From Pseudomonas sp. PDNC002 (GTDB lineage: Bacteria > Pseudomonadota > Gammaproteobacteria > Pseudomonadales > Pseudomonadaceae), in assembly GCF_016919445.1 (NCBI RefSeq), contig NZ_CP070356.1:5459502-5523501 (forward strand): DNA of 64,000 nt, read 5' to 3'. The translations under genes were made by a program, and so were the position numbers. Below the pieces are notes generated by a model. It saw only the letters and a list, made by a program, of their open reading frames with translations, did no database searches and was not told the DNA's origin. Numbering within the stretch: the first letter of the stretch is position 1; every line of letters begins with the position of its first letter. Shown piece by piece: positions 15,989 through 58,087 of this stretch.

Positions 15989-16120
15989 CCCTCTCCCTAA
16001 CCCTCTCCCTGAAGGGAGAGGGGACTGTTCAGTTTCAATCGAAACTCCTCACACGCCGGCAACTCCGATCTGCTCCCTCTCCCTTCGGAGCGGGGCGCGT
16101 AGCCAGGGCTGGGGAGAGGG
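15989..16120. repeat. Paired-palindrome element, copy 1 (GGGAGAGGG family)
   Basis: Two inverted hairpin arms surround a unique core of about 50 bp. The left arm reads CCCTCTCCCTAACCCTCTCC with a GAAGGGAGAGGG return; the right arm is CCCTCTCCCTTCGGAGCGGG continuing to AGCCAGGGCTGGGGAGAGGG. This is the same architecture, in the opposite orientation, as the two copies near 22.2 and 22.8 kb. With the oprB terminator it accounts for most of the 478-bp gap; I see nothing else in the rest. Confidence 0.85.
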
Positions 16121-22178: not shown

Positions 22179-22347
22179 CCCTCTCCCCCGCCCTGGCTGC
22201 GCGCCCCGCTCCGAAGGGAGAGGGAGCTTTCCGAGCCGTCTGTAGTTATCTACGCCCCGGTCAACCACTGCATCAGGAGAATGACGGTCTCAACCCAAAT
22301 GCCAAACCAATCCCCTCTCCCTTCAGGGAGAGGGTTAGGGAGAGGGC
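22179..22347. repeat. Paired-palindrome element, copy 2 (left flank of the nuclease gene)
   Basis: 169 bp. The first arm begins CCCTCTCCCCCGCCCTGGCT and includes GCTCCGAAGGGAGAGGGAG; the second arm is CCCTCTCCCTTCAGGGAGAG with GGTTAGGGAGAGGGC at the end. The core contains TCTGTAGTTATCTACGCCCC and AATGACGGTCTCAACCC. It differs from the copy at 22743-22911 by only five substitutions and has the same length and orientation. It begins just past the gltB promoter region. Confidence 0.93.
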
Positions 22348-22352
22348 AATGG

Positions 22353-22688
22353 CTAATCATCCAGCGCCAAGCGTATCGCCTCCAGCACCGAATCCATCTT
22401 CAACAACACATCATGATTCCAGAACCGGAGCACCGTGAAACCCTTGTTCTTGAGCCATGCGTCACGCTCCAAGTCGGCGCTGGAATCCAGATGCTGCCCA
22501 CCATCCAGTTCGATGATCAACATCCGTTCGTGACAAATGAAATCGATGATGTACGGACCGATGACTTTCTGCCGGCGGAATTTGAGACCGAGGAAGCGGT
22601 GGGCGCGCAGGTGGTGCCAGAGGGATCGTTCGGCTTCGGTCTGGTCAAGGCGGAGTTGTTTGGAGAACAGGGTGAGGCGGGAAGTCAT
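22353..22688 (-). CDS. DUF559 / Vsr-like endonuclease-domain protein
   Basis: 111 residues, a complete small PD-(D/E)XK nuclease-like domain of the DUF559 family related to very-short-patch repair endonucleases. Likely active-site residues are Asp49 in YIIDF, Glu60 and Asp62 in IIELDGGQH, and His66; the N-terminal LRLDQTEAERSLWHHLRAHR and C-terminal GFTVLRFWNHDVL are family marks. The frame extends upstream into the flanking repeat, but the ATG at 22688 opens the conserved domain. It lies between two 169-bp direct repeats inside an otherwise conserved glucose locus, which suggests a mobile or acquired cassette. No methylase partner is adjacent. Molecular function is unproved. Confidence 0.85.
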   Translation of the reverse strand: MTSRLTLFSKQLRLDQTEAERSLWHHLRAHRFLGLKFRRQKVIGPYIIDFICHERMLIIELDGGQHLDSSADLERDAWLKNKGFTVLRFWNHDVLLKMDSVLEAIRLALDD

Positions 22689-22742
22689 TCGTTGGAGTCT
22701 CCCAAAGCTCGACTCCCTGGAGACTACTTTGCGGCCCCACCG

Positions 22743-22911
22743 CCCTCTCCCCAGCCCTGGCTGCGCGCCCCGCTCCGAAGGGAGAGGGAGCTTTCCGAGC
22801 CGTCTGTAGGTATCTACTCCCCGGTCAACCACTGCGTCAGGAGAATGACGGTCTCAACCCAAATGCCAAACCAATTCCCTCTCCCTTCAGGGAGAGGGTT
22901 AGGGAGAGGGC
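22743..22911. repeat. Paired-palindrome element, copy 3 (right flank of the nuclease gene)
   Basis: 169 bp, same orientation and about 97 percent identical to the copy at 22179-22347 (five differences counted by eye). The two copies start 564 bp apart and enclose the DUF559 gene. The copy ends 46 bp before the gtrS stop codon. Confidence 0.93.
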
Positions 22912-29280: not shown

Positions 29281-29396
29281 CCCCTCACCCCAGCCCTCTC
29301 CCAGAGGGAGAGGGAGCCGATTGTGCCGGCTGGCGCCATTGGCTCTCCCTGCGCAGAACGGTCCCCTCTCCCTCTGGGAGAGGGTTAGGGTGAGGG
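29281..29396. repeat. Paired-palindrome element, copy 4
   Basis: Two arms, CCCTCACCCCAGCCCTCTCC with an AGAGGGAGAGGG return, and CCCCTCTCCCTCTGGGAGAG with GGTTAGGGTGAGGG, enclose a core of about 45 bp. It lies between the convergent gapA and DUF1289 genes and may act as a two-way terminator. Confidence 0.88.
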
Positions 29397-35396: not shown

Positions 35397-35516
35397 CCCC
35401 TCACCCTAACCCTCTCCCGCAAGCGGGAGAGGGGACAGATCGGAGCAGGTTGAAACCATGGCATCAGCCGGCACGGACGGCCCCCTCTCCCTCTGGGAGA
35501 GGGCTGGGGTGAGGGG
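35397..35516. repeat. Paired-palindrome element, copy 5
   Basis: First arm CCCCTCACCCTAACCCTCTC with a CCGCAAGCGGGAGAGGGG return, second arm CCCCTCTCCCTCTGGGAGAG with GGCTGGGGTGAGGGG. With the solo REP hairpin it takes up most of the 300-bp gap between trpS and scpA. Confidence 0.88.
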
Positions 35517-57510: not shown

Positions 57511-58087
57511 GGTCCCTCCCGAGGCGTCGGGTCGACCGTTAACAATGCCTCAAGGCTCGGGCAGGGAGCGTCGCTGCGCATGCCGGGGCCGGGTCCTTTC
57601 CTGTGGGCGCCAACGTACTTCCGCGCAGGCTGGAGGTTACTTCCTTGCTTGCCGGCCACGGCGCGAGCGAATGACTCGCCAATGGCCGACCGACCGGATG
57701 CACCGGGCTGTGCGTGACCGCCTACGCATGTCCGCTGGGGACTGCAGCCCTGTTCGGTCGCTGGAACCTCCAGCTGTCAACATAGACCAGCGTCAGAAAA
57801 CTGTGCAAATTTTGAGCAGGCATGGTGGGCCGACGGAAGATTGGCACGGCGGAGCGTCACGCCCCCCAAAGCCCCCGCACCCGCCGGTGGTAGGCAGGCG
57901 CAATGCTCTTCTGTCGTTGAGTCCGTGCGCTGCACGTCCCTCGCCTTGGCCCGCGCGCGCTCAGGAAGAGGAGGCAGACCGAGCCGGCTGACGCCGAAGA
58001 CCCAACGGCCCCCCTCTCCCTTTGGGAGAGGGCTGGGGTGAGGGCCGCTCCGAGCACATCGCTATCGCGTCGCAGTGGCGCCCTGCC
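57511..58087. other. 577-bp intergenic region, mostly featureless
   Basis: It holds the promoter of the large membrane protein and, at its far end, a solo palindrome. I see no convincing gene; short open frames here lack ribosome sites and codon bias. Confidence 0.6.
58012..58044. repeat. Single-arm palindrome, copy 6 of the GGGAGAGGG family
   Basis: CCCTCTCCCTTTGGGAGAGG with GCTGGGGTGAGGG, one arm without a partner. It lies 43 bp after phhR and may serve as its terminator structure. Confidence 0.8.

Follow-up and report, generated by a model that had tools for sequence, protein, structure and literature searches.

Introduction

The closest described relatives of the arrangement reported here are the REP-associated tyrosine transposases (RAYTs) and their repetitive extragenic palindromic sequences (REPs). 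A RAYT is a solitary gene flanked by inverted palindromes whose arms coevolve with it and whose copy number follows the gene (PMC2817692); doublets of such palindromes, the REPINs, have also been described (PMC3116915). In this study we analysed a stretch of 64,000 nucleotides from Pseudomonas sp. PDNC002 (NCBI RefSeq assembly GCF_016919445.1, contig NZ_CP070356.1, positions 5,459,502 to 5,523,501), hereafter the window, in which a gene for a small nuclease of the DUF559 family lies between two nearly identical palindromic elements. We consider it probable that DUF559 genes and such palindromes are the two parts of one RAYT/REPIN-like system that is built on an unrelated, Vsr-fold nuclease. 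This reading is based on the observed linkage of gene and palindrome, their gene-by-gene matching, the palindrome copy number, purifying selection on the gene and an intact active-site pattern in its product.

The palindromes themselves resemble a motif that has been described on its own. The intrastrand triplex motif (TM) unites what were formerly called BoxC and PIT, and one form of it is present in 262 proteobacterial genomes (PMC4666352). That paper reports no mobility gene near the motifs and calls their origin unclear, and its text lacks the words 'nuclease', 'endonuclease' and 'DUF'; the present data link a nuclease family to the motifs. DUF559 proteins have been placed in a different setting. 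E. coli YcjD was handled as a PD-(D/E)XK nuclease related to Vsr (PMC1189080), and for Caulobacter VsrA a role in mismatch repair linked to a cytosine methyltransferase was proposed, in a paper whose text has no occurrence of 'palindrom' (PMC12907096). The literature that we searched, with preprints and most subscription papers outside its scope, yielded, among the matches listed, no link of DUF559, ycjD or Vsr to palindromes. Since neither the DUF559 family nor the repeat belongs to any nuclease-palindrome system found described there, we regard this one as new as a system. The motif was already known and its enzyme was not; the logic, if confirmed, is that of RAYTs and REPINs.

Results and Discussion

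In the genus, 24 DUF559 matches were found in 15 of 25 genomes. All 16 genes scoring above 100 bits had an arm of sequence CCCTC(T/A)CCC within 400 bp, as against 0 of the 8 other matches, which comprise one truncated copy, one partial match and six domains in open reading frames (ORFs) of 1,915-2,298 aa. The 16 flanked genes do not amount to 16 independent sites, many of them being orthologous. An arm of this type also flanked 30 of the 30 best-scoring DUF559 loci in a survey of 298 genomes of the family. Among 26 further best-scoring loci from a 398-genome survey of the phylum, 16 carried CCCTC(T/A)CCC within 400 bp and the remaining 10 carried C/T-rich hairpins of different sequence within 450 bp.

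Having viewed these best-scoring loci, we fixed a sequence-blind hairpin rule (perfect stem of at least 8, loop of 2-8, one arm with at least 85% pyrimidine and 50% C) and then applied it to 60 new phylum loci of 16.3 kb each. A qualifying hairpin was present within 300 bp of the DUF559 gene in 54 of these. As controls we took 524 other ORFs that a simple script had called in the same loci, and 29 of them qualified (odds ratio 154, p=8e-48). The short distance to the nearest hairpin in the phylum loci (medians of 66 bp on the upstream and 45 bp on the downstream side) might suggest chance, or ordinary terminators next to the gene, but the density of hairpins with a C/T arm was 0.333 per 100 bp near the gene against 0.0061 at 1-8 kb, while other hairpins were barely enriched (0.044 vs 0.037). 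The comparisons by hairpin type and with control ORFs rule this explanation out, and we give it next to no credence.

A further 40 loci, picked for the CCTTCTCCC prediction described below, included 35 with a qualifying hairpin. Over all phylum loci a hairpin lay within 300 bp on at least one side in 114 of 126 and on both sides in 71. We also took 80 named loci from a collection spanning 84,980 species; 69 of them qualified, 46 on both sides. These 80 are the best of at least 576 relatives and not a random draw. The qualifying loci include records titled Chloroflexi (one of two), Nitrospirae, Planctomycetota and Deltaproteobacteria. Two Deinococcus plasmid loci had hairpins on both sides and two Synechocystis loci on one side. 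The expectation that most DUF559 genes, unlike other genes, would be flanked by palindromes was therefore borne out in the loci sampled. The central idea of the initial annotation, a nuclease paired with palindromes in the manner of RAYTs and REPs, withstands this test; its interpretation as a whole is partly supported.

Each DUF559 gene has its own palindrome. At the phylum loci with hairpins on both sides, the nearest arms were identical over 8 nt in 59 of 71 cases; within the 60-locus set the left and right arms were identical in 34 of 36, the figure for random pairs being 26%. In 16 genomes with several sampled DUF559 genes, arms agreed in 34 of 40 comparisons within a gene and in 27 of 68 between genes (p=0.0002 by permutation within genomes). 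Genome G462 illustrates this, as ATCTCCCCC, CCTTCTCCC and ACC(C/T)CCCC palindromes are found there, one at each of three DUF559 genes. Hairpins of the ATCTCCCCC type occurred in 7 of 76 genomes searched, with 76-183 copies in the four that had that flank in our sample; the remaining three were G347 with 84 copies and two others with 4 and 1. We predicted that a further DUF559 gene of G347 would have a ATCTCCCCC flank, and such a gene was found (L212). Close DUF559 relatives within one family shared their arms in 86% of 72 pairs above score 320. Agreement of protein and arm across families was weak (34 of 110 nearest proteins, p=0.02).

The copy number of the palindromes followed the presence of the gene, as the initial annotation had anticipated. 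In 296 genomes of the family, the median number of exact palindromes was 53 with DUF559 (n=99; best E at most 1e-12) and 0 without it (n=197). For a count of at least five copies the odds ratio was 52 (p=1.5e-35), and shuffling labels within genera reached the observed value in 0 of 2,000 shuffles (p=0.0005), this stratification by genus being the only correction for descent in the copy-number tests. Outside the family, at least five copies were present in 58 of 101 genomes with DUF559 and in 13 of 278 without (odds ratio 27, p=4e-28), in a test that leaves out G677, to which the pattern search does not extend.

That the palindromes are ordinary REPs moved by RAYTs, with DUF559 unrelated to them, is extremely unlikely. 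A Y1_Tnp match was indeed present in 237 of the 296 family genomes, but at least five palindromes were counted in 19 of 19 DUF559-positive genomes without Y1_Tnp and in 36 of 157 genomes with Y1_Tnp and no DUF559, and the overall effect of Y1_Tnp was not significant (p=0.16). RAYTs therefore do not explain the copy number and are ruled out as the driver of the palindromes. The traits shared with RAYTs and REPINs are inverted palindromes on both sides of the gene, coevolution of enzyme and arms (weaker across families), a copy number that follows the gene and doublets around a core. By its parts, however, the DUF559-palindrome system is not a RAYT system: the window protein has a Vsr-like fold with no match to a Y1/HUH domain, and the palindromes are of the triplex type and occur also in genomes without a Y1_Tnp match. 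A GTAG-type head as in REPs was not seen in the elements read, of which no systematic count was made. One genome, G242, had 14 Y1_Tnp matches, and those listed were all on contig C2.

The active-site-type residues noted at annotation, Asp49, Glu60 and Asp62, are present in the DUF559 protein of the window and invariant across alignments of 20 and 40 homologues; together with the fold, they give it the acidic active-site pattern of Vsr and PD-(D/E)XK nucleases. The predicted structure (model predicted local distance difference test score, pLDDT, 90.9) has a Vsr-like fold, and the structure that it matches best outside DUF559 belongs to the homing endonuclease I-Bth0305I, of which it is the catalytic domain. 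A Pfam scan of the protein returned DUF559, with MTES_1575 and DUF321 below their cut-offs, and neither Y1_Tnp nor any transposase family. Miniature inverted-repeat transposable elements derived from insertion sequences are likewise short, gene-less, dispersed in the genome and provided with inverted ends; the present elements differ in that no transposase family is found in the window protein and the sites are too diverged or decayed for a target duplication to be read. We also considered a defence gene and rejected it, PADLOC giving only a weak DpdF match (16 bits) for the window protein and none for YcjD; under the same heading, three records of a phage collection had a match.

The fold invites the explanation that a Vsr-like host nuclease handles unstable palindromes or mismatches, while the palindromes spread by other means and stay as substrates or regulators. 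Caulobacter VsrA, which causes an SOS response in cells without ScmA (PMC12907096), is consistent with this, as are the deletions that we saw at the E. coli yjdP-phnP BoxC site, where instability has been reported (PMC4666352). At this site (L338, L341-L345) some strains have an entire BoxC and others half of it or no more than a short end, in a deletion-like manner. Gene-specific matching of arms within one genome and the copy-number link are, however, not expected of a general repair enzyme, and we regard this explanation as unlikely.

In order to follow the history of the locus, we surveyed 18 genus genomes, the host included, with a strong match to the region of the kinase ORF that adjoins the DUF559 gene. 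The ORF on the other side is presumably gltB, a name taken from the initial annotation only. In the 17 genomes readable to the other flank, the DUF559 gene was intact in 10, truncated in one and absent from six; the truncated copy had no recognisable palindromes, and four of the six empty sites measured 120-132 bp and showed no palindrome over the sequence read. These states indicate that gene and palindromes were gained or lost together and are mostly inherited. The idea of a mobile cassette at this locus, with which the initial annotation began, is not supported and was set aside, since 10 genomes of the genus, the host among them, have the intact gene at this position. The palindromes beside the gene were present in 4 of 4 comparable relatives, all of which retain the gene. 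Over 45 pairs among ten orthologues, the ratio of nonsynonymous to synonymous substitution rates had a median of 0.20 and a maximum of 0.31. The gene is under purifying selection and old at its site, and hence a resident and not a fresh insertion. The gene-less elements of the window turn over among syntenic relatives (Table 1).

A homing-type nuclease, which would cut sites lacking the unit so that repair copies the unit in, could account for the existence of both filled and empty sites and for the structural match to I-Bth0305I. Unlike that enzyme's gene, the DUF559 gene is intergenic, lying in neither an intron nor an intein, and it has dispersed gene-less partners; palindromes without a gene at many unrelated sites form no homing pattern. 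We consider homing very unlikely.

The last residues encoded by the kinase ORF, a sensor kinase, are nearly equal to those of the annotated gtrS on the P. aeruginosa plasmid pHPA0698-2. The statement of the initial annotation that gltB and gtrS are adjacent in P. aeruginosa needs qualification, because on this plasmid a DUF559 gene stands beside gtrS. The plasmid locus (L334) comprises gltR, gtrS and the DUF559 gene (70% of the query matched), and no palindrome could be recognised in it. There are matches in two further P. aeruginosa plasmid records. Several records of 2-5 Mb that are labelled 'plasmid' (NZ_CP141089.1 and N. gonorrhoeae records) look like whole chromosomes.

The initial annotation took the unit as possibly undescribed, but its palindromes fit a known motif. 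The published TM consensus, CCCTCNCCC-N3..6-GGGNGAGGG-N3-GGGNGAGGG (PMC4666352), is matched by two stretches of the window, 22313-22346 and 22877-22910, so that the palindromes themselves are of the BoxC/PIT/TM kind. The two direct repeats differ at exactly 5 of 169 positions, as first reported, and are 96% identical over 176 nt. Each consists of two inverted hairpins around a core, also as described at annotation, with the arm CCCTCTCCC and a similar third arm beside the hairpins. At the phylum DUF559 loci a third arm (78% match) stood beside 47 of 185 nearest hairpins, and in 43 of the 47 it was present on the gene side only. The pattern CCCTCTCCC-N2..8-GGGAGAGGG has 635 copies in the 6.39-Mb host genome, far above chance, and the backward control has 0. 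At 18 of 28 other element loci fetched by similarity from this genome, at least four arm motifs lay within 500 bp, and these 18 look like doublets.

In E. coli K-12 the DUF559 gene is ycjD (167 bits), between sapF and fabI. Its 3' end overlaps a degenerate BoxC, of which strain 118UI has a clearer form. The BoxC copy on the downstream side of the gene is identical in sequence to motif no. 9 in the MG1655 table of PMC4666352. The K-12 motifs are imperfect, and we identified them by eye. Of 5,426 complete genomes, 3,364 contain the greater part of the stretch made up of ycjD and BoxC. E. coli without ycjD have eefRABCD between the same genes (PMC12817139), and in one example that we inspected annotated efflux genes stood at the sapF-fabI place. 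Thus, at L335-L337, either ycjD with BoxC or the efflux operon is found beside sapF, depending on the strain. One E. coli control genome gave no DUF559 match in the profile search, and this strain perhaps does not have ycjD.

Several observations weigh against a two-part system. Among family genomes without DUF559, 29 of 197 hold at least ten palindromes, including the single-contig genome G017 with 124, and 6 of 99 genomes with DUF559 hold at most two; these exceptions were counted with one exact arm pattern, and another arm is possible. Under the strict definition 12 of 126 phylum loci have no hairpin, nor does K-12 ycjD within 400 bp, and 138 of the 185 nearest hairpins have no clear third arm at our threshold. 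The prediction of a CCTTCTCCC flank held in three of eight genomes (G545, G462 and G580) and failed in G383, G350, G490, G404 and G648, with only part of the DUF559 genes of each looked at. By gene, this flank was found at 6 of 23 further genes where the genome had at least 14 copies and at 0 of 13 where it had no more than 4 (p=0.07); this count leaves out 4 of the 40 loci (G364, G416 and two of G576), for which the copy number was intermediate or missing. Across 60 E. coli genomes chosen as a spread, the median BoxC number was 16 in 37 with ycjD and 3 in 23 without (p=1.4e-9), but three ycjD-positive genomes (H168-H170), whose identity is lower, have 10-11, a number that several ycjD-less genomes also reach. 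Descent can explain this link; it is confounded and we do not count it as evidence. According to PMC4666352, long-term evolution data of E. coli B show no correlation to the motif, and this argues against movement being frequent. Neither a target-site duplication nor a clean insertion boundary could be made out in eight genus relatives or in six E. coli strains at yjdP-phnP, the junctions being diverged or resembling later deletions. Finally, the evidence is sequence comparison, from which binding, cleavage and mobilisation are inferred steps.

The palindrome-rich genomes without DUF559, and the occurrence of genomes with several DUF559 genes, would also suit a passenger gene, the palindromes then belonging to an unknown mobile element and DUF559 being its cargo. 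It is difficult to reconcile this with the recurrence of a single gene family throughout the phylum, with the identity of the two flanking arms in 59 of the 71 loci that have both, and with long-term residence at one site, and we find it quite improbable.

We therefore return to the two-part system as the preferred reading. A solitary Vsr-fold DUF559 nuclease would keep a fixed chromosomal site and own a cognate, dispersed family of pyrimidine/purine palindromes. It may recognise its own palindrome once this is extruded in hairpin or triplex form, probably where DNA is single-stranded at replication forks, and nick one strand, by which copies would spread, amplify or be maintained. The palindromes flanking the gene could be its founding recognition sites, and gene and palindromes would stay together either because these sites are needed or because they are selected jointly. 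Of the RAYT analogy drawn in the initial annotation, linkage and copy number stand, and mobilisation by the nuclease is what we infer. We put forward only tentatively that palindrome mobilisers evolved independently a second time, as the class of DUF559 nucleases, with each enzyme recognising its own triplex-type palindrome and copying it through the genome. On this view the origin of BoxC, PIT and triplex repeats from E. coli to Deinococcus would be solved.

DUF559 is a candidate enzyme for the BoxC-type triplex repeats, with ycjD as the candidate in E. coli K-12. If true, this would provide a likely role for a family named for its unknown function, and mean that the RAYT/REPIN lifestyle arose more than once, with unrelated enzymes. 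It also cautions against reading DUF559 genes by default as defence or repair genes.

Other features of the window and the host genome

The positions of the gene and the elements are collected in Table 1. They include the related elements without a gene that the initial annotation had noticed elsewhere in the window, which we located at about 16.0, 29.3, 35.4 and 58.0 kb.

Table 1. The DUF559 gene and palindromic elements of the window (positions counted from its first nucleotide)
Feature	Position	Strand	Basis
DUF559 (PF04480) nuclease gene, 111 aa	22353..22688	-	PF04480 match, 135 bits
Palindromic element on the 3' side of the DUF559 gene; direct repeat copy 1	22179..22347	+	
Palindromic element on the 5' side of the DUF559 gene; direct repeat copy 2	22743..22911	+	
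Hairpin and third arm, facing the DUF559 gene; matches TM consensus	22313..22346	+	Sequence, arm positions
Hairpin half of copy 2 facing the DUF559 gene; 5' arm broken by a 17-nt insert	22743..22788	+	Sequence
Hairpin and third arm at the end of copy 2 away from the DUF559 gene; matches TM consensus	22877..22910	+	Sequence, arm positions
Gene-less related element; palindrome in 1 of 8 syntenic relatives	15989..16120	.	
Gene-less related element; palindrome in 3 of 7 syntenic relatives	29282..29396	.	
Gene-less related element; palindrome in 3 of 8 syntenic relatives	35398..35515	.	
Single hairpin with third arm	58012..58044	.	

The host genome has a second DUF559 gene (L002 1834-2440; G000:C1, at about 3.05 Mb, outside the window), which is directly followed by a tandem array of head-to-tail units of about 112 bp, each with a CCCTCTCCC hairpin. 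A 17-nt insert, GGCTGCGCGCCCCGCTC (window 22195-22211), was observed in nearly identical form in one arm of many hairpins of the host genome; these elements were fetched with a query containing the insert, and their share is not an estimate of its frequency. At several intergenic sites where the host has a triplex-type element (window 16.0, 29.3 and 35.4 kb), relatives have a GTAGGAGCGAGC-type repeat.
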